NCBI RefSeq assembly: GCF_014695375.1
Contig: NZ_JACJOG010000053.1
Coordinates: forward strand, 186,001 to 250,000
Direction: 5' to 3'
Length of the DNA: 64,000 nt
Origin: Coleofasciculus sp. FACHB-T130
Lineage (GTDB): Bacteria > Cyanobacteriota > Cyanobacteriia > Cyanobacteriales > FACHB-T130
This document shows positions 4,552-63,544 of this stretch, piece by piece. Below the pieces are notes generated by a model. The model was not told where the DNA came from. It did not search any database and saw only the letters and a program-made list of their open reading frames with translations. Positions within the stretch are counted from its first letter, which is position 1. Every line of letters starts with the position of its first letter. Both the position numbers and the translations under genes were made by a program.

Positions 4552-4650
4552 GTCCCAGCCCCCTCATCCCCAGATTTTTACTTCTGCCAACTTTCAGATG
4601 TTTCCCACCATCACGTCTTGATAATTGACCGCTTACTGGCTACTAAATTC

Positions 4651-4710
4651 CTCAGCCCTCAGTCCTCAACTCTCAGTCCTCAGCCCTCAGTCCTCAGCCC
4701 TCAGTCCTCA
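4651..4710 (+). repeat. Tandem repeat of CTCAGTCCTCAGCC
   Basis: About four copies of a 14-base unit made of two similar 7-mers (CTCAGCC and CTCAGTC). It lies upstream of both queC (leftward) and the oxidoreductase (rightward). It is a heptamer tandem array of the kind seen in cyanobacterial spacers. Confidence 0.75.
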
Positions 4711-24718: not shown

Positions 24719-25975
24719 TCAGGCGATACTACCGCGCTTCCTGGCTTCTTTATAGGAAGTCCCGACATTTCTCAAACCAGCCTTAATCATTTGTTGTTCG
24801 AGTAAGGCAAAGAAACGAGCGCGATCGCCCCCTCGCACGACTGCCTGATTGTGTGCCTCTGCAAGCGCCACCGGATAGCCATAACCCTTCTGCACCTGAG
24901 CCAACATCAAGCTGAGCGAAACATCCAGCTTCTCTGGATTCTCTGCCACCCACGCGGGAACTTCTACACGAGCAATTTCAGTCCCGACATGGACGTAGCA
25001 GAAGTAGATTTGATGGGCACCGTACAACTCCAGAATCCGTGCAGAACTGCGCCATAGAGGACTGCGTTGACCGGGCTGCAATTGAGACGCCCAGAGGGCA
25101 GTATCCCGCAAGGGATCGAAAACCTGGCAGGGTGCCCGGTCAAACTGACCAGGACAATGAGTCATGCAGTCGGGAACTGGATGCGGGCAGGCTGGCAGAC
25201 GCAGGAAGTTCAGTGCTTCGCTGCTGCGAGAAGCACTCAGGTAGCCCATAATTGGAATCCCCGTATCGCGTAGAACATCCCAGGCTTCCAGAATTGGAGG
25301 CAAAATATGGTCGCGGGCTTCCCCCGGTAACTGCTCTAGAAACCAATAAATTAGCGATCCATCTACCATTGCTAGGGCAGGGATTGGGGATTTGGGATCG
25401 GGAATTGAAGATGAAATTTCCGATTTTCTGTTTCCGTTTCCCTGTCTTGACGTGACTTGTGAAGGTCGGTTAATCCAGCTAGCAGCCAATTCTGCCAACA
25501 CAGACGCCTCCGAAGCCGTGCGTCGATAGCCCATCCATTCCTCAGGGCGAATTCCCCACTGGCGGGAAATATATAGGTCTTCCGAGCGATAAAAGACTTC
25601 TGGTAGGCTATCTAAGAGCGGGTACAAGCTTTGTCCATAATGCAGCACCACCCGACCCACGTTAATCAGATAGCAGTAGGCAATTTCATGGTGACTCGGA
25701 GCAATCTGAGACCCGTCTGTAGCAATAATCGTATGGACAGCCGGAGGGGTAGGAAGGTCAATGGCAGTGCTTAGGGACTCAATGGGTGCGGCTGCTGCAA
25801 ACCCCAAGCGATCGCGCCACTTTTCTTGCAGATGTACCAAATCTGCCTGAGACTTTTGAGCCAGTGTCAGTAAGTGCTGGGCGCGTTCCAAGCGTTGGCG
25901 ACTGGCAGCAGCCTCTACCGTCAGGTGTTGACTAATCCCCTGCATTTGCCGCGCGAGTTTGGTTAGGTCAAGCAT
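24719..25975 (-). CDS. NurA-domain DNA repair nuclease
   Basis: A 418-residue protein with the NurA domain. The first metal-binding motif is IIATDGSQIAPSHHE (Asp87) and the second is LAMVDGSLIYWFLEQ (Asp205). NurA is a 5'-3' nuclease that in archaea works with HerA in end resection; no HerA-like gene is in the window. Between the two motifs, about residues 173-199 (DNA 25378-25459) form a low-complexity insert made from short repeated GGGATTTGGGAT-like words and their complements. The frame is kept. The N-terminal 60 residues are a coiled coil. It converges with xseB. Confidence 0.85.
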   Translation of the reverse strand: MLDLTKLARQMQGISQHLTVEAAASRQRLERAQHLLTLAQKSQADLVHLQEKWRDRLGFAAAAPIESLSTAIDLPTPPAVHTIIATDGSQIAPSHHEIAYCYLINVGRVVLHYGQSLYPLLDSLPEVFYRSEDLYISRQWGIRPEEWMGYRRTASEASVLAELAASWINRPSQVTSRQGNGNRKSEISSSIPDPKSPIPALAMVDGSLIYWFLEQLPGEARDHILPPILEAWDVLRDTGIPIMGYLSASRSSEALNFLRLPACPHPVPDCMTHCPGQFDRAPCQVFDPLRDTALWASQLQPGQRSPLWRSSARILELYGAHQIYFCYVHVGTEIARVEVPAWVAENPEKLDVSLSLMLAQVQKGYGYPVALAEAHNQAVVRGGDRARFFALLEQQMIKAGLRNVGTSYKEARKRGSIA

Positions 25976-26103
25976 AGTCAGCTATCCGCTTTTCGCCTAT
26001 CAGTTCTCAGCTTAAAGCATGAAACATCAAGGCGATCGGGATGAATTTATAATTTACACTTGATACTTCTCCATCCCTCTAACCTTGGGTTCCCTTTTCT
26101 CAT

Positions 26104-26901
26104 CTAAGTCCAAGCCGAAAAATCTTGAGCAAACTGAGACAGAGATAAAAGCTGAATTCGTTCCTGATACGCGACCGACTCTCGTTGAGCAGCAGTATTG
26201 TAACCCCAATCGGCAAGAAACAGCTTGATATCATTGAGGTCTGGTTGCTGTTGCACAGTTTGCAGAGTTTTCAAGCGATCTTCCACAAACCAAAGGTGAA
26301 CCGACGAATCGCTACTGAGTTCGCGCAAAATTTCGTACTTAGGACGCCGATTTTCTTTCCCAATAATGCATCGATCGGGTAGTTGGATACCCTGTTGCTG
26401 CAACAACTGGCGGACAAAGCGTCCCTCTTTGGTAGTGACGATGTACGTTTGGATGGGTGTATCTGGAAGCGATGCCTTCTCCGATTCCATCCGATGCATT
26501 TTTTCAACAACACCTGGATAGAAACGATGTAAGGCTAGCCAACCCTCTAAATCCCTATCAATCCACTCATCCCGGATACGATCGAGCTTCGTGCCGATAT
26601 CAGCCGCATTCAAATTATCTTCTTGCAAGATTTGCTGAGCCACCCCTGACCAATCTTGCAACATCTTTTCGTCAGGAATGCCCAATATTAGCGCCCGGAT
26701 TGCCACCGGCATTTCCCAACCGATTTCTATAATCGGTCGTCGCTGGTAGAAACTTTCAGCCAAACCATGTGGAGGTGTGAGATTAGGCGGTGCCCAAATT
26801 TGACAGTAGGTGCGCCAAGCTGTCTGAAAATACTCGATTAGCCCGTCACAGATAACACCGTCAAAGTCAAGGGCGAGAATATTTGGGTAACTTGCACGCA
26901 T
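26104..26901 (-). CDS. HAD-superfamily hydrolase
   Basis: A 265-residue protein starting MRASYPNILALDFDGVICDG, with HAD motif I Asp12 and Asp14. Motif II is near YIVTTKEGRF, and the Lys/Asp motifs III/IV near KYEILREL and LWFVEDRLKTL. The cap is a helical insert after motif I. Probably a small-molecule phosphatase; the substrate is unknown. The ATG at 26899-26901 is chosen; a longer frame to 26958 lacks homology-like sequence. A 26964-26992 hairpin repeat lies just upstream. Confidence 0.8.
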   Translation of the reverse strand: MRASYPNILALDFDGVICDGLIEYFQTAWRTYCQIWAPPNLTPPHGLAESFYQRRPIIEIGWEMPVAIRALILGIPDEKMLQDWSGVAQQILQEDNLNAADIGTKLDRIRDEWIDRDLEGWLALHRFYPGVVEKMHRMESEKASLPDTPIQTYIVTTKEGRFVRQLLQQQGIQLPDRCIIGKENRRPKYEILRELSSDSSVHLWFVEDRLKTLQTVQQQPDLNDIKLFLADWGYNTAAQRESVAYQERIQLLSLSQFAQDFSAWT

Positions 26902-26963
26902 GGTTCTAAAGCCGCAATCTTTCGGTTTATCTTGGCACAATTTGCCCAACAAGCCCAATAACC

Positions 26964-26992
26964 AGTAGAGACGCGAGCTATCGCGTCTCTAC
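26964..26992. repeat. Dispersed palindromic repeat (GTAGAGACGCGA type)
   Basis: AGTAGAGACGCGA faces TCGCGTCTCTACT with the loop GCTA, a 13-bp perfect stem. The GTAGAGACGCGA core is, to my knowledge, a common dispersed repeat in filamentous cyanobacteria. A related shorter form (ACGCGATTAATCGCGT) is at 53580-53595. Confidence 0.7.
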
Positions 26993-27026
26993 TAGGTTTC
27001 TCAAAACTTAGGTTTCAAAATTTAAC

Positions 27027-27097
27027 TGGGGTGCAAGGATTCGAACCTCGGAATGGCTGGACCAAAACCAGCTGCCTTACCACTTGGCGACACCCCA
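27027..27097 (-). tRNA. tRNA-Gln (TTG)
   Basis: Reverse strand: acceptor TGGGGTG/CACCCCA (U1-A72, as in tRNA-Gln), anticodon stem GCTGG/CCAGC with loop TTTTGGT, T-arm with GGTTCGAATCC. The anticodon is TTG. Confidence 0.9.
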
Positions 27098-27357
27098 TCG
27101 CATCAACCTTCGTTATAGTAGCAGTTCCTACTAGGGAATTGTCAACCATTTTTAGGAAATTTCTCTTAAATCCTTCTTTATCAGTGGATAAATGGTGAAG
27201 ACTCAGTATGGATTTTTGGAAATTGACGCATAGAAAAGGCTTCTTGAACGCTTACCAGTTAAACAGTGTGGCTCTCCTAGCCAGCTTCTCCCCCTCTTAT
27301 GGAAAGCGTGCCGGGAAAGTGTTTTAGCTTTTTCGACATCTTTACCTCCTCGAAACC

Positions 27358-27461
27358 CATATAGGGTGTTGCACAATCATGCGATGATTTTCTTTTAAAC
27401 TCCGCGCTACCTCGTCTTTGCGCCAGATAATCATCTTTCTACTGTGCAACGCCCCATATAG
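27358..27461. mobile_element. MITE-like element, about 100 bp
   Basis: ATATAGGGTGTTGCACA (27359-27375) and TGTGCAACGCCCCATAT (27443-27459) are inverted with 15 of 17 positions matching, enclosing about 67 bp without coding capacity. The inner sequence adds a second partial match (GATGATTTTCT/AGATAATCATC). No transposase is present, so it would be non-autonomous. The rest of the gap 27098-27478 holds a 12-bp direct repeat, AGCTTTTTCGAC, at 27326-27337 and 27468-27479 on either side, and nothing else. Confidence 0.6.
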
Positions 27462-27478
27462 ATCCACAGCTTTTTCGA

Positions 27479-29290
27479 CTAGGCGGGATAAATTCGCAGC
27501 CGTCGATTCGGTTCTTCCCCAAAACTGTCAGAGTTGAGGCGATAGTGTTCGACGAGTTCGTGTTGCATTTTACGAACTTTAGAAGAACGCGGCAGGAGTT
27601 CCACCGGCTGTCCTTTGGGAATCACGATTTGCTCCACGGCAAGGCGGGCTTCTTCGAGAGCCTCAATCTCGTCTTCACTACCGCTACTAGTAAATAAGCT
27701 GAGTTCGGGGACATCTAGAACCTGAGAGTCATCCATATCCAGCAGACGCCTTAGGGCGCGGGTAATCTGGGGAATGGTACTTGCCTTAATTGCATGGATG
27801 GGAACCTGACGGGCTTTGGCAATATGTCGTAGCTTGGAATGGTTTTTTACGTGCGACCGAATCGCCAAAACTGCATCCGCGCTATCCATATCCTTCGTCA
27901 GCAAGATGGGCAAATTCAGCACCCGAATGACTTGCTCTAATTGTTGGCTGCTCACCCCATAAGGATAAACGTGCAATGGCAACTCTTCGCCATTTGGCCC
28001 CACAAAGGTTTCATTTCCGATCGCCTGAGGTTGATGCCAAGATTGATCCAGCATCTGCTCAAAAGAAGGTGCAAGGTTAGAAGAGACAGGCAATGAAGTA
28101 GAGGCAGATTCTTCTCCTCTAGCTAATAGGTTTTGCGGTTCTGCCCTCATGCCTCGCGTTGATTCTGACTGCATTGGTAATGGAGTCATTTGCCCAGAAG
28201 CCCGCCAGCCCATTGGTCGCGCTGGGGCGTCGTGGGTGGAGGATATACGGCTACCTCCGCTCATCGCTGGTCGCATGAGTGACGGTGCTTGGGGGGTCTC
28301 ATGGGTAATCGTAACTTCCCCAGTCTCGCTGGTTGTCCTAACTTGATAACCCGGCTGACGCCCCCGCAGCAGGGTGTCAACGGTATCGGCAACACTTTCA
28401 TGTACCACCCAGCGCTGCCGTTCTAGCATTTCAACAGCAATTTCAAAGGTTGGCGGGGCTTTGCGTTCCAATACCGTCTTTTGGCTACCCCGGCGTCTGG
28501 CTTCGTCATCTCCCAGAGTTACGGCCTGAATGCCACCCACTAAGTCAGATAACGTTGGATTTTTAATCAGATTTTCAATCCGATTTCCGTGAGCTGTACC
28601 CACCAGTTGAACACCTCGTTCAGCAATCGTTCGAGCTGCCAAGGCTTCTAGTTCTGTGCCAATTTCATCAATGACGATGACTTCTGGCATATGGTTTTCC
28701 ACTGCCTCAATCATGACTTGATGCTGGAGTTCGGGACGGGCGACTTGCATCCGTCTAGCTCTACCAATTGCTGGATGAGGAACGTCACCATCCCCAGCGA
28801 TTTCGTTGGAGGTGTCGATAATGACAACTCGTTTCTGTAAATCGTCGGCTAAAACTCTGGCGATTTCCCGCAGTGCTGTTGTTTTGCCAACACCGGGACG
28901 CCCCAGCATCAGAATCGATTGACCTGTTTCTACTAGGTCGCGAATCATGCCGATGGTGCCAAACACGGCTCGACCTACCCTCAAGGTAAGACCAATGATC
29001 TCGCCGCTTCGGTTGCGGATAGCGCTAATCCGGTGCAGAGTTCGCTCTAGTCCTGCTCGGTTATCCCCACCAAAATTTCCTACCCGGTCTACACAATAAT
29101 TCAGTTGTTCTTTCGACACTGGCGTTTCGGAGAGATACTCTGCCTGTTTAGCAAACCGAGCCTCTGGAAGACGCCCCAAGTCTAGGACAACCTCAACTAA
29201 CTTATCCCGTCCCGGATGCTGCTCTAAAGGTTGCCGAATTTCATTCGGTAACACGTCCAGTAATTTCTGGAGATCGTCTGTAATCTGCAT
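27479..29290 (-). CDS. Ycf45/SpoIIIAA-type AAA ATPase with R3H domain
   Basis: A 603-residue protein. The N-terminal ATPase has [18 protein letters not shown] (Walker A), [15 protein letters not shown], and [20 protein letters not shown] (Walker B), the layout of plastid Ycf45 and SpoIIIAA. A low-complexity linker (about residues 335-430) follows, then a domain with repeated [20 protein letters not shown], and a C-terminal R3H-type end (LRIYPA). R3H binds single-stranded nucleic acid. The cellular role is unknown. ATG 29290 is chosen; an in-frame GTG nine codons upstream is possible. It is downstream of ldpA, 177 bp apart. Confidence 0.85.
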
Positions 29291-29467
29291 TCTTTGTACA
29301 GTGACGTTTTTATCCACAATTGGTGATTTAAATAACTGATGTTTGTTCTTTACCTGGGAAGCGTTGCAGGTTGGCGATCGCGTTGAAAAGTCGATTTTTG
29401 CAAATGGTCAATCTTTTAACCTCCAACCTTTTAATCGATGGCATATCTAAAAGCGCGCTTCTACTGG

Positions 29468-30700
29468 CTATTGGGAAAAGGTTTTGAGTTGAGAAACTAG
29501 CGAGTGAGCAAGATCAACAGCTTGCCAGAGTAAATCCGGCTTTTCTTCCAAGCGTCCAGGTAAAGGTGTTTGACTTGACGCGGAGGTATTCCCACCTACT
29601 TCGTTTATATTCATTTTTTCTAATTCATCCAAGATGGGTGATAACAAAACACGAGCGTAGCTGCCATAAGCAATCCCGGCGATATTAGGGGATTGAGCGG
29701 GAAAAGTTTGAGTTGGTTGGAGCGGGTTTTTCGTTGATCCCTGGTTCCCTACAGGGATGCTTGATAGAGATGCCCTTCCGACTTTTGACTCTTGGACTTC
29801 TGGCTTTTGGTGGTTGTTGAGCAGTCCCATTGTCCTAAGTTTGCCAACAGTGTGGCGATTAGTGCCTCCTGCTAACTGCACATATCCGGGCAATCCCGCC
29901 GTTAGAACTTTTTGACCTAACTTTACAGCAGCTATCGTTGTGCCATCGCCAATATCGCCACTCATAGGACGCCCATCTGTTTGCCAGATGAGAGGACAAG
30001 GTAGGGGTGCCATCAATTCGTATAGCGCTCGGAGGTAATCAAGCATCGCTTCACCATCTGGACAACTAATGGCTAAAAGCTTGAGCTGATTTACCCAAGG
30101 CGCGATCGCACTCCAGAGTCGTTTAAAGTCTTCTACTCTGCCAACTTGCGTGTGAATTTCTAAGGCATCTACGCCGCTTTGAAATACCAAAGGTGCGATC
30201 GCTTCCGGTGCGGATACATAAGAACGAGTATAAATTAAATTATTTGGGCATACGGGAATACACCGTCCGCAGCCATAACAACGTTGATCGATCACCCCTG
30301 AAAAACCGTTCTGGCCAAAGTCAAAAGCGATCGCATCAGCCGGACAAATACTTTCACAAGGTCGCCAGCAATCTGCTGGACACTCAGTTGAGTTAAATTC
30401 AGCTTTTCGGAAATGAGGATCTTCCCCATCATTTAGGCTGACCATCAGCCACGGCAAACCTTCTACGCAATAGCCGCGATCGCGGGCGGCATCGGCAAGG
30501 GTAGTCGCAGCCTTTATACCTTCTTTCGCCGCAGCAATGACTGCTGGGTCAGCGGCAACATCGATACAGTCAGCCCCAGCGAGGGTATATGCCAACGCAA
30601 GATTTCGGACGGCAGGGAGGTGTTGGAAACTAGCTCCGCAAATGAGCTTAAACCAGTGACCCTCTCTTAAGGAACGCAAAGGATAGTAGGTATCAGTCAC
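29468..30700 (-). CDS. ldpA: LdpA, iron-sulfur protein of the circadian clock input
   Basis: LdpA links the redox state to the circadian clock in cyanobacteria. The 410-residue protein has two ferredoxin-like cysteine sets: Cys107, 111, 115, 119 (ECPADCWRPCESICP) and Cys141, 144, 147, 151 (CYGCGRCIPVCP), so two iron-sulfur clusters are expected. The N-terminal MTDTYYPLRSLREGHWFKLI is typical. About residues 295-338 (DNA 29687-29818) are a low-complexity insert built from repeated ACTTTTG/ACTCTTG/ACTTCTG words, and make this protein longer than the roughly 350 residues I expect for the family. Confidence 0.9.
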   Translation of the reverse strand: MTDTYYPLRSLREGHWFKLICGASFQHLPAVRNLALAYTLAGADCIDVAADPAVIAAAKEGIKAATTLADAARDRGYCVEGLPWLMVSLNDGEDPHFRKAEFNSTECPADCWRPCESICPADAIAFDFGQNGFSGVIDQRCYGCGRCIPVCPNNLIYTRSYVSAPEAIAPLVFQSGVDALEIHTQVGRVEDFKRLWSAIAPWVNQLKLLAISCPDGEAMLDYLRALYELMAPLPCPLIWQTDGRPMSGDIGDGTTIAAVKLGQKVLTAGLPGYVQLAGGTNRHTVGKLRTMGLLNNHQKPEVQESKVGRASLSSIPVGNQGSTKNPLQPTQTFPAQSPNIAGIAYGSYARVLLSPILDELEKMNINEVGGNTSASSQTPLPGRLEEKPDLLWQAVDLAHSLVSQLKTFSQ

Positions 30701-37136: not shown

Positions 37137-38000
37137 ATGGGCATCCGTTCTTATCGGCCTTATACTCCCAGTACTCGTCAAGTGACCATTTCGGACTTTG
37201 CCGAAGTTACGCGGAGTGAGCCGGAAAAGTCACTAACCTACACAAAGCACCGCCCCAAAGGTCGAAACAATCGTGGGGTGATTACTAGCCGCCGTCGAGG
37301 TGGTGGTCATAAACAACTCTATCGGGAAATCGATTTTCGCCGCGATAAGCGTAATATCCCGGCAAAAGTGGCAACCATTGAGTACGATCCAAATCGCAAT
37401 GCCCGGATTGCCCTGGTTTATTACCAGGATGGCGAAAAGCGGTATATTCTTCACCCAGTCGGCTTAACCGTCGGTACAGTTATCACTGCTGGCCCAGACG
37501 CCCCAATTGAAATTGGCAACGCATTACCATTAAGCAAAATTCCGTTAGGAACTGCCGTTCACAACGTAGAACTGACTGCTGGACGGGGCGGGCAAATTGT
37601 TCGCGCTGCTGGTGCCACTGCACAAGTAGTCGCTAAAGAAGGTGACTATGTCACCATCAAGCTACCCTCCGGTGAAGTCCGCATGATCCGCCGCGAGTGC
37701 TACGCTACCATCGGACAAGTCGGCAATGTTGAGCATCGCAACTTGAGTGCTGGTAAAGCTGGTCGTAATCGCTGGAAGGGACGCCGTCCAAAGGTAAGAG
37801 GCAGTGTCATGAACCCAGTCGATCACCCACATGGTGGTGGTGAGGGACGGGCACCAATTGGTAGAAGTGGACCAGTCACACCTTGGGGTAAGCCAACTTT
37901 AGGTGCTAAGACCCGTAAGCGGAACAAGCCAAGCAATAAATTAATTGTCCGGCGTCGTCGCAAATCTTCCAAGCGAGGTCGGGGCGGTCGGGAGTCCTAG
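37137..38000 (+). CDS. rplB: 50S ribosomal protein L2
   Basis: A 287-residue L2, full length, from [15 protein letters not shown] to the basic end KRGRGGRES. The SH3-like core and the essential C-terminal loop near the peptidyl-transferase centre are intact ([19 protein letters not shown], with the conserved His). Confidence 0.98.
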
Positions 38001-38091
38001 GATTTTAGATTTTGGATTTTAGATTAGCAATACGTCCAAAATCCAAAATCCAAGATCCAAAAATCCAAAAGTAATTGGGGTTATTTGAACT
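38001..38091 (+). repeat. GATTTTG/CAAAATC word spacer
   Basis: Left: TTTTAGATTTTGGATTTTAG; right: CAAAATCCAAAATCCAAGAT. Clear inverted word array, between rplB and rpsS. Confidence 0.75.
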
Positions 38092-39611: not shown

Positions 39612-39715
39612 GTTGATAGGTAATCGGTAATCGGTAATGGGTAATCAAAAAGAAAACGCCCAATTACCAGTTACCAATTACTAATTACCAATTATCAATT
39701 ACCCCTTACCAAGTC
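39612..39715 (+). repeat. GGTAATC/GATTACC-type word spacer
   Basis: Left: AGGTAATCGGTAATCGGTAA; right: AATTACCAGTTACCAATTAC, then further ATTACC copies. One of the clearest inverted word arrays. Between rpsC and rplP. Confidence 0.8.
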
Positions 39716-42652: not shown

Positions 42653-42806
42653 ATAAGCTAATAGCTATTAGTTATTAGCTATTAGCTCGATTGGCTGGTA
42701 GGTTTCAAAAACCTAGAAAAGCACAGACTTTCGGACTCACCGATAGACCAAAAGCTAACAGCTAACAGCTAACGGCTAACGGCTAATTGATTAGGAGGAT
42801 TAAGTC
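42653..42806 (+). repeat. TAGCTATTA/AGCTAAC word spacer
   Basis: Left: AATAGCTATTAGTTATTAGC; right: AGCTAACAGCTAACAGCTAA then CGGCTAACGGCTAA. The arms flank about 60 bp. Between rpsH and rplF. Confidence 0.8.
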
Positions 42807-61778: not shown

Positions 61779-61855
61779 TTTCTAAGAGTTTTGAGTTTTT
61801 AGTTTTGAGTTTTGAGTTATGAGTTAATCATTCAAAACTCGTCATTCAAAACTCA
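61779..61855 (-). repeat. TTTTGAG/CTCAAAA word spacer
   Basis: Left: GAGTTTTTAGTTTTGAGTTT; right: AATCATTCAAAACTCGTCAT, then TCAAAACTCATCAC. The arms are clear reverse complements. Confidence 0.75.
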
Positions 61856-63544
61856 TCACTTTTCTTTTCCTGTACCGGAAATATACCAGGTTAAGAGTCC
61901 TCCTGCGATCGCGATCGCTGCTAAACCGAGAAATACTGCCTGTAACCCTAAAATCGTCTCTGCAACGCCTGCTAAGGCTAAAGGCAAGCTGAGAGCAATA
62001 TTAATGACGTTGTTTTGTAGCCCAAAGACTTTCCCTCGCATTTGGTCGGGAGTTTCGGCTTGGATGGTTGTCTGCATCGGGATAGCCACCAGCGACCCAA
62101 AAAAGCCCAAAAGCGTTGTCAACAGGAATGCCAGCAATAGCTGCTTCGTAAACAATCCCAGACCAACCAAAGAGGCTGCCGTTCCGATAGAACCATAGAG
62201 GCTGAGCCGAGTATGGGAGAACCGCTGCCCAAAGTGTCCTAGCACCGTTGCCCCCCCAACCATGCCAACCCCACCAGCTGCGAGTAAAAAACCGAACTGA
62301 GAGGATTTCAAACCAGGAATAACTTCTGCCATCCGCACAGCTAGAACCGACAGCGCCGCAAAAACTGAAAATAAAATTACCAGTTGGATCAGGGCATTGC
62401 GAACGCGGCTTTGTTCGTTTAGGTAACGCAGTCCGTCGCGCAGGTCTTCCCAAACATGGGGTGATTCGTGTTCGGGAGCGTTCGTTTTTTCCCCTGTGCG
62501 GAGGATCATCAACAGCAATCCCGCGATCGCATAACTGCCACCCACCACCAATTCTTTGCCAATGTCCGCTCCCCCACCCAAGCGTCCCACCAAGGTGTCG
62601 GCAATTCCGAGTAACGGCTCTCCCACGGCAAATCCCACGATCACTGAAGCCATCATTGTCATCGTGTACAGCGAGTTCGCTGAAAGCAGATGATGGCGTC
62701 CCACAACTAGCGGAATCACTGACTGCTCGGCAGGAGCAAAAAACTGCGTCAGTGTAGAAATCAGAAACGTTAATCCCAGCAGGATGCAGAATCCCACCGG
62801 CAACCCTCCAAGAGTTAACCAGCCATGCGAGATCCACAGCAGCGGTGGCACTGCTAAAACCAGTACACCCCGCAGCAGGTTCGTTGCCACTAGCACTGCC
62901 TTCTTAGGCCACCGATCGACATACACACCCGCCACGGAACCAAACAGTATGGCGGGAATCGTAAAAGCCATCATGATCGCCGATACCCACACGCTGATTG
63001 TCTGATCGGGTGCTTGAAAGTGAGTGGCAATCAATGCAATCACCAGCACCAGATACACTTTGTCCGCTATCTGTGAGAAAACTTGTCCCCCCCATAGCGC
63101 CAGGAAATTCCGGTTTTTTAGAACCGGCAAAAATCCTTGTGCGTCCTCCTCTACTTCCTCATTCTTTACTTCCTCATTGACAACCAGATTGGACGGTGAG
63201 GCGCTGTGGTTCAACCCTCCATTTGAGGGAGCGTCCGTTTCTGTATCTATCTCTGGGGTTACAGCATCGTCCACCGGGGAGTGGGGAAAAGAAATCGCAG
63301 GGCGAACCTCTTCCCATTCAGAAGTTTCAGGGGGTGTTAAGCGCTCGTCAGACAAGGGGCGTGATGTGGTAGGTGTTGACGATCCAGTAAAAGCAGGGTG
63401 GGGGCGCTCGGAAGCGGGAACGCTGAGTCCGGAAGAGCGAGGAAATTTTCCTTCCTCAGTCCACCGTTCGCCGTCCTCAATCCTCTGTCTAGACTGACTT
63501 AGGGACATTCGAGCTTGTAGATCGGAATCATACCGTTGCATCAT
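61856..63544 (-). CDS. MFS transporter with long N-terminal extension
   Basis: A 562-residue membrane protein. The first 130 residues are a polar, low-complexity cytosolic extension (Ser/Thr/Pro/Glu-rich, with NEEVKNEEVEED). From about residue 140 come twelve membrane spans of the MFS_3 (EntS-like) type, with the MFS loop GVYVDRWPKKAVL. It is likely an exporter or a siderophore/drug pump; the substrate is unknown. It starts at ATG 63542-63544, 3 bp after the upstream gene stop, so the two are coupled. The extension is unusual for the family. Confidence 0.85.
   Translation of the reverse strand: MMQRYDSDLQARMSLSQSRQRIEDGERWTEEGKFPRSSGLSVPASERPHPAFTGSSTPTTSRPLSDERLTPPETSEWEEVRPAISFPHSPVDDAVTPEIDTETDAPSNGGLNHSASPSNLVVNEEVKNEEVEEDAQGFLPVLKNRNFLALWGGQVFSQIADKVYLVLVIALIATHFQAPDQTISVWVSAIMMAFTIPAILFGSVAGVYVDRWPKKAVLVATNLLRGVLVLAVPPLLWISHGWLTLGGLPVGFCILLGLTFLISTLTQFFAPAEQSVIPLVVGRHHLLSANSLYTMTMMASVIVGFAVGEPLLGIADTLVGRLGGGADIGKELVVGGSYAIAGLLLMILRTGEKTNAPEHESPHVWEDLRDGLRYLNEQSRVRNALIQLVILFSVFAALSVLAVRMAEVIPGLKSSQFGFLLAAGGVGMVGGATVLGHFGQRFSHTRLSLYGSIGTAASLVGLGLFTKQLLLAFLLTTLLGFFGSLVAIPMQTTIQAETPDQMRGKVFGLQNNVINIALSLPLALAGVAETILGLQAVFLGLAAIAIAGGLLTWYISGTGKEK

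Follow-up and report, generated by a model that had tools for sequence, protein, structure and literature searches.

We examined two conserved genes, nurA and ldpA, in a window of 64,000 nucleotides from the cyanobacterium Coleofasciculus sp. FACHB-T130 (the focal genome G000, 6.2 Mb; G000:C53:186001-250000, on a 339-kb contig). Each gene carries an in-frame stretch of short words that an earlier note had read as a recent insertion of spacer-type arrays into a tolerant loop. Our preferred reading, which we hold at a probability of about 0.6, is that such stretches belong to a population of dispersed bipartite repeats and small hairpins, which turn over in place and, within genes, persist at flexible linkers that tolerate them. 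The unit of this cyanobacterial class would consist of a G-rich array of 7- or 8-nucleotide (nt) words, a short A/T-rich core and a C-rich array of 7- or 8-nt words. Units would be copied to new sites and there undergo turnover in place, through slippage or with similar arrays as the source; a copy inside a gene would survive only if it lay in a flexible linker, kept the frame and had no stop. As neither 7 nor 8 is a multiple of three, long arrays last only if the word is free of stops in every frame.

Neighbouring arrays obey a word-independent polarity in which the G-rich arm comes first. We catalogued 493 arrays from 80 named loci, G000 and a further genome, G046, with duplicated genomes removed. 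Neighbours no more than 100 bp apart ran from G-rich to C-rich in 76 cases and in the reverse order in none; the remainder of the 108 pairs had two G-rich arms (8), two C-rich arms (10) or an unskewed arm (14). Related Microcoleus loci share sites, so that the pairs are not all independent; without the 18 Microcoleus-like loci the count was 60 to 0. A larger set with overlapping genomes (L061 overlaps G005) gave 81 to 0, and a looser detector found one C-to-G pair, at 101-150 bp. At 301-5,000 bp the reverse order prevailed (74 versus 15), a result that pairing of the arrays would lead one to expect. The 90 pairs within 150 bp came from 39 of 83 genomes and comprised 75 word pairs and 88 arm words, with the same word in both arms in only four. 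In four sets of pairs, near-inverted words (at least 6 of 7 positions) were present in 12/65, 5/7, 5/7 and 1/5, where the null expectations were 2.5, 0.3, 0.3 and 0.3.

Seven is the dominant unit length. In 1.47 Mb we counted 218 period-7 arrays and 30 period-8 arrays, compared with one to four at each of periods 4, 5, 6, 10, 11 and 13 and one in shuffled DNA; arrays explained by shorter periods are excluded from these counts. The period-7 arrays, from 81 sequences, lay outside conserved genes in 148 cases, at gene edges in 46 (excluded) and inside in 24. We read fourteen of the 24 as LdpA, seven (at five loci) as a response-regulator/sensor-kinase gene upstream of ldpA, one as NurA and two as short frames of doubtful status. 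At two of the five loci the kinase was identified from motifs in the protein; in Nostocales the gene preceding ldpA reads as response regulator/sensor kinase and not as an R3H ATPase. Long (CCCAATT)n arrays at L087 3801-3951 and L136 16970-17048 are open as reading frames (NSQFPIPNSQFPIP), with doubtful coding status.

The clearest case of dispersal is G046. A tblastn search of this genome with its own LdpA protein returned at least 65 rows, at least 64 of them outside ldpA and at least 57 at distinct places, all lower bounds with 66 of 416 candidates scored. Every row listed outside ldpA aligned within residues 261-336, that is, the loop and its edges. In the other 29 genomes the same protein gave 0-3 rows each, with one row each in G009 and G022 reaching the loop. 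At five sampled G046 places, ldpA included, we found the same composite of (GGGGAGAT)n, a core like AGAATTTTTA and (ACTCAAC)n (6 of the 20 G046 stretches had been selected for ACTCAAC arrays). None of 22 close pairs in G046 had the same word in both arms, 20 of the 22 joined an octad to a heptad, and the cores were alike among copies (AGAATTTTTAACTC-like). Six genes in 362 kb of G046 hold arrays with homology on either side: NurA and LdpA and, as named by our reading of motifs, a sensor kinase (at two places, of which the first has poor homologues), an ABC transporter, a second kinase (its loop preceding DTGAG) and, weakly, a WD40-like gene. When the G000 contig was tested in this way, a single array turned up, near an N-terminus.

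Words found in loops were also counted genome-wide, as overlapping matches in 60 genomes. Three copies of GGGGAGAT matched 567 times in G046 and 68 times in the next genome; for ACTCAAC the figures were 137 in G046 and 3 in the next, making the word close to genome-private. CCCCART in triplicate matched most often in G008 (487), G039 (361), G002 (264) and G005 (256), and CCAAAAT in G036 (95), G030 (57), G004 (48) and G046 (43). At a threshold of 15 of 16 nt, GGGGAGAT was present in both G046 loops, ACTCAAC in the G046 LdpA loop, CCAAAAT in both G004 loops and CCCCART in the NurA loops of G002, G005 and G039, as well as of G000 and its congener G001, where its genome count is 0. The backward control TAAAACC, a telomere-like heptad, had 81 triplicate matches in G045, two in G029, one in G054 and none in the other 57 genomes.

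Arrays recur in the orthologous loops of relatives. Both focal loops lie between conserved blocks, as the earlier note had stated, and vary in length across 30 aligned sequences per protein; the sequence there differs among homologues. AlphaFold gives a predicted local distance difference test score (pLDDT) below 50 at NurA 171-193 and LdpA 298-335, in models that are modest overall (mean pLDDT 64 and 68) and have further low segments. LdpA was aligned first with 29 relatives and then in 110 rows, of which 107 are distinct (three genomes appear twice); the 33 NurA rows include one genome twice, leaving 32. Period-7/8 arrays with at least 16/18 matches occurred in 24 of the 107 LdpA loops and in 4 of the 32 NurA loops, two of these four from genus g2 (G002 and G005), the nearest other genus by NurA identity (~85%). 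No such array appeared in codon-shuffled loops (110 + 33 rows, 20 shuffles each), and LdpA loops had none at control periods 5, 10, 11 and 13 and one at period 4. The rest of the open frames held two array matches in 114 kb (LdpA set) and one in 36 kb (NurA set). The words of loops and arrays are diverse, including ACTCAGC, CAAAATC, CCCAAAT, GGGAGCA, GGGACAAA, GGAGACAA, CACTCCT, GGGGAAT, CACCCCAC and ACTCAAC. Word gains counted by parsimony (28 steps) are disregarded, since one label was too loose: it required two 7-mer matches in a loop and flagged some 39-residue loops. The LdpA loops of L077, L097, L104 and L135 have another dispersed-looking sequence nested in frame (for example, GGGAAACCCGCCCACG in L077 and L097), and that of L097 reaches 123 residues with anchors. 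A nurA homologue at G042:C1:4034940-4036915 was matched in several pieces with one internal TGA, and is possibly broken or interrupted by insertions.

In the focal NurA loop, the sense strand reads as a purine-rich arm, an A/T-rich core and a heptad C-rich arm (Table 1); the span 25378-25459 marked by the earlier note covers both arms and the core. The heptads of the C-rich arm are degenerate, with 14/18 matches at period 7 and a codon-shuffle p of 0.0002; here, as for the other focal p values, this is a single test among eight period/window settings tried per loop. The LdpA stretch is a weak 15-nt duplication in which period 7 is marginal (p = 0.025, codon shuffle). Tandem Repeats Finder (TRF) scored it at 41 and did not list the NurA array at 40 or above. 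Weak matches to the inverted repeat of the LdpA loop were about as frequent on the focal contig as in shuffled sequence (18 versus 13), and we rejected its dispersal there. The NurA stretch is probably, and clearly in form, a worn member of the bipartite class; the LdpA stretch may be one, doubtfully. The claim of repeat words in both genes thus stands for NurA and is weak for LdpA.

Table 1. Features of nurA, ldpA and the spacer pairs, in positions of the window
Feature	Position	Strand	Remarks
nurA	24719-25975	minus	418 aa; Pfam NurA; contains the first in-frame array; aligned with 29 relatives
NurA C-rich arm	25380-25407	minus	Sense-strand heptads TTCCCGA TCCCAAA TCCCCAA TCCC, in frame as SSIPDPKSPIP
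NurA putative A/T-rich core	25408-25419	minus	Between both arms; placed by direct reading of the sequence
NurA purine-rich (G-skewed) degenerate arm	25420-25451	minus	Period 14, 13/18 matches, p = 0.0024
ldpA	29468-30700	minus	410 aa; Pfam LdpA_C and Fe-S domain; contains the second stretch
LdpA 7-bp inverted repeat ATCCCTG..CAGGGAT	29737-29758	minus	In the loop; G001 has a copy with one change
LdpA short-word stretch AAGCCAGAAGTCCAAGAGTCAAAAGTCGGAAG	29775-29806	minus	Weak 15-nt duplication; 13/18 at period 15, p = 0.0036
LdpA 15-bp segment	29791-29805	minus	Present in G000, missing from congener G001 (alignment of G000 C53 with G001 C3)
Spacer pair (GGATTTT)n-core-(CCAAAAT)n	38000-38063	no strand	Reference form of the element here; DNA fold z -6.2
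Spacer pair (GGTAATC)n-core-(CCAATTA)n	39612-39710	no strand	DNA fold z -3.8 (39612-39703)
Spacer pair (AGCTATT)n ... (AGCTAAC)n	42656-42791	no strand	Inverted words, 58-nt gap; TRF
Spacer pair (GAGTTTT)n-core-(CAAAACTC)	61783-61860	no strand	TRF; fold z -4.7

Spacers of the window hold the bipartite architecture (Table 1). Convergent G-rich strands are clear for the spacer pairs and only weakly visible in the focal NurA loop, and long hairpins are predicted for three of the pairs. A C-type array of CCTCAGC/CCTCAGT at 4649-4710 had no partner G-type array detected within 150 bp.

The age and the genomic copies of the two focal words differ. NurA arrays stand at the same position and in the same frame in G000, G001, G002 and G005 and are purest in the last two, which dates the array to before the genus and does not support the view of the NurA insertion as recent. 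For LdpA, the 15-bp difference from G001 is a change at the level of the genus, but the rest of the G000 genome lacks further copies of its words. We found five near-copies of the NurA word elsewhere in G000 (up to 2 mismatches; backward control 0), one in a spacer and four inside long open frames. Three of these are in frame in linkers: between the domains of a 762-residue oxidoreductase-AIRS fusion, which we take to be SelD-like (SSIPNSQSPIPNPP); in a large protein, immediately behind its TPS domain (FNPQSPIPNPQS); and in a sensor kinase, where the near-copy lies between HisKA and HATPase_c (LPSQIPNPKFEE). The fourth, in the conserved NFACT_N domain, looks like chance. Neither focal word is among the spacer arrays catalogued on the focal contig. 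A genome-wide search placed the NurA word in other genes and a spacer and found the LdpA word in neither.

The linker of the SelD-like fusion gives a view of insertion between near relatives. Heptad-like arrays of CCCCAAT and CCAAAAT type occupy it in G000, G001, G002 and G005, and the linker differs in the seven other relatives shown. In G002 the array is broken in frame by 42 bp that are missing from G005 of the same genus. Near-copies of these 42 bp (up to 3 mismatches) number six in G002 and seven in G005, with none in G000 or G001 and none for the backward control, and the insert folds as a hairpin (z = -3.6). The presence of the 42 bp in G002 and not in G005, together with the dispersed near-copies, shows that a small dispersed hairpin entered an intragenic array; comparison of the occupied and empty sites by eye gave no clear target duplication. 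This hairpin of genus g2 (core GATGTTTTGGGAAGAATCAATTTCCCCAAAAATCGC) is seen at G002:C125:3908-3943 with copies at L252-L263, and in the SelD-like linker of G002 only. The earlier note's proposal that array formation is not confined to spacers is supported by the NurA word type in frame in three other G000 genes, by orthologous NurA and LdpA loops of other genera with different, often perfect 7/8-nt arrays, by the dispersed G046 loop element and by this in-frame insertion.

Several observations weigh against dispersal followed by turnover. The LdpA word has no other copy in G000 at up to 3 mismatches, and CCCCART in triplicate has no match in the whole genome. Hairpins in the focal loops were rejected, with fold z of -0.74 (NurA) and +1.00. 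Rank tests of word against genome gave p values of 0.0009, 0.0056, 0.052 (CCCCART, not significant) and 0.012 for words that had been picked after the loops were seen, and the word is missing from the examined loops of two word-rich genomes, G008 (LdpA only) and G036. In the one occupied/empty pair, what was inserted is a hairpin inside an array and not a whole two-arm unit, and G002 and G005, compared at 95-97% identity over ~70 kb of aligned pieces, showed no gain or loss of an array. The skew within loops could partly stem from amino-acid preference. Finally, we found no element boundaries, target duplications or mobilizing enzyme, and made no search for a repetitive extragenic palindromic (REP) tag or a REP-associated tyrosine transposase (RAYT).

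An unlikely alternative is that a single early entry into the ldpA and nurA loops was followed by concerted evolution, the arrays being rewritten in each lineage by gene conversion. As the source would be the other arrays of the same genome, new words need not mean new insertions. This would fit the G-skew, which is greater in the first than in the second half of the loop in 97 of 105 LdpA rows and 32 of 33 NurA rows (47% and 51% in control windows), and the NurA and SelD-like arrays of genera g1 and g2, which share position and have partly different words. It would also fit a Microcoleus spacer directly 3' of ldpA, where L108 and L132 have the same flanks and different words (TTGGGAA/TGACTAA versus AGTCAGT/AACTGGC) at 98.3% identity over the last 1.1 kb (ldpA). 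On the other hand, the LdpA loops of L052, L054, L055, L056 and L059 are very short (27-33 residues with anchors) and traceless, and the arrays in the G046 ABC transporter and kinases sit where most homologues shown have short loops.

The Microcoleus spacer has features of its own. About 200 bp downstream of ldpA, the ends TTTTAGTCA..TGACTAAAA are kept and the words replaced in L108, L132, L100, L082 and L109, and another dispersed-looking sequence lies between the arms in L115, L106, L093 and L076. The TTTTAGTCA..TGACTAAAA ends, present in several species at this one Microcoleus spacer, may correspond to the fixed terminal inverted repeats of miniature inverted-repeat transposable elements, which are also marked by a target-site duplication. 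The word replacement also counts in favour of turnover in place under our preferred reading.

Similarly improbable is local slippage alone, by which low-constraint loops and spacers would each grow 7/8-nt microsatellites and shared words would reflect polymerase bias rather than movement; the idea is in print (Mrazek 2007, as cited in the available parts of PMC4692102 and PMC4679880). Indels between G000 and G001, counted over 125 kb, would fit slippage as well as our preferred reading: those in spacers have maxima at 7 bp (11) and 14 bp (5), against 5 of 6 bp, 3 of 8 bp, 2 of 13 bp and none of 15 bp, and coding indels are multiples of three in 46 of 80 cases. In-frame tandem coding indels of 12 and 15 bp between G000:C53 and G001:C3 (for example, at window 13816 and 63152: GAACAACACAGA, TACTTCCTCATTCTT) are the frame-keeping counterpart of the 7- and 14-bp spacer indels, and the LdpA 15-bp duplication would likewise fit slippage. 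Yet both arms and the core recur jointly at many G046 sites with a word that is near genome-private, and the 76:0 polarity with mostly different arm words is not expected of independent slippage.

We consider it a long shot that the arrays are scars of double-strand breaks, with a templated or slipping polymerase extending both 3' ends by G/T-rich repeats before they were joined. Such repair would yield a G-array, a junction and a C-array head to head, like fused telomeres; it would explain one polarity over 88 arm words and arms that differ in word. However, the alike cores of G046 and its octad-heptad pairing are more like a copied unit, arm purity has no gradient towards the core (0.850 in inner versus 0.855 in outer halves, p = 0.41; growth of arms at the core was rejected on the same figures) and no candidate enzyme was identified. 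If, improbable as we judge it, a cyanobacterial process does lay telomere-like G/T-rich 7/8-nt repeats from the 3' ends on both sides of broken or stalled sites and then joins them, the G-array/core/C-array would be its footprint, and its action inside genes too would give a steady supply of new in-frame linkers for housekeeping proteins. Chance or composition, through low-complexity linkers with many P, S, Q and G residues that look repetitive by accident, may still account for the focal LdpA stretch taken alone, which is weak (p of 0.0036 and worse) and non-recurring, but is very improbable as a general account, being already contradicted for relatives by the codon shuffles and by the copies at no fewer than 57 other G046 places.

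Heptad repeats are a long-known feature of cyanobacteria, among them the heptanucleotide short tandemly repeated repetitive (STRR) sequences of Calothrix and Nostoc. A 7-nt unit in many dispersed arrays, as in STRR, is found here too, clearly in the focal NurA stretch and marginally in LdpA. The small dispersed repeats (SDR) of Nostoc punctiforme are fixed, very small sequences of 21-27 nt, dispersed, hairpin-forming and often embedded in heptad arrays; the 42-bp insert of G002 is the nearest candidate for such an element, a likeness by description and not sequence by sequence. In the bipartite elements the arms are arrays and the core spans ~10 nt. REP and REPIN sequences are palindromes of 20-40 bp that carry a family tag (GTAG, for example) and are linked to a RAYT transposase. 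Rickettsia palindromic elements are small repeats that spread in frame inside proteins; they are longer fixed sequences and are not known to contain 7/8-nt arrays. PARCEL coding repeats also spread in frame in proteins, as a 25-residue motif with no 7/8-nt arrays in the part of the source available (PMC2996958).

Further parallels come from published heptads. The accessible portion of PMC4692102 reports GGGGA(T/C)T heptads in Nostoc PCC 7120, 68% of them intergenic and few in inverted pairs, and intragenic copies were therefore already known. Like STRR, these are tandem, degenerate 7-nt words in many, mostly intergenic copies; as far as that portion goes they are of one word type, whereas neighbouring arrays here are mostly bipartite with fixed polarity and usually different arms, and orthologous loops carry different arrays. 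The same source gives convergent pairs of GGGAATC arrays in Xanthomonas (70 and 75 cases), which resemble ours in the convergent orientation of two arrays; on its account they use one word in both arms, as 4 of 90 pairs do here, and they belong to a different phylum. The TAACTGA heptads of Beggiatoaceae and cyanobacteria lie partly inside open reading frames, with stop codons limiting their orientation and mobility suspected (PMC4679880, in part); they are a single word in mostly hypothetical frames, and the parts examined describe no two-arm rule. Tandem repeats of constant size and variable sequence, with units of 20-21 and 52 nt (PMC8161180, in part), are alike in keeping unit length while the sequence differs between species, again with no two-arm structure in the parts examined. 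In the available text of PMC4692102 and PMC4679880, slippage and horizontal transfer figure only as suggestions. Published work already covers heptads, copies inside genes and, for Xanthomonas, convergent pairs. Word-independent polarity and the recurrent use of orthologous loops were not met in the literature searched, print beyond it being unchecked.

The word-independent polarity is a concrete constraint on any mechanism. Dispersal with turnover in place is testable by strain comparison, for which the copies of the G046 loop, the in-frame insertion that separates congeners and the Microcoleus word replacement are available. The arrays in NurA, LdpA and their host-gene counterparts show a route from intergenic repeats to the linkers of conserved proteins.

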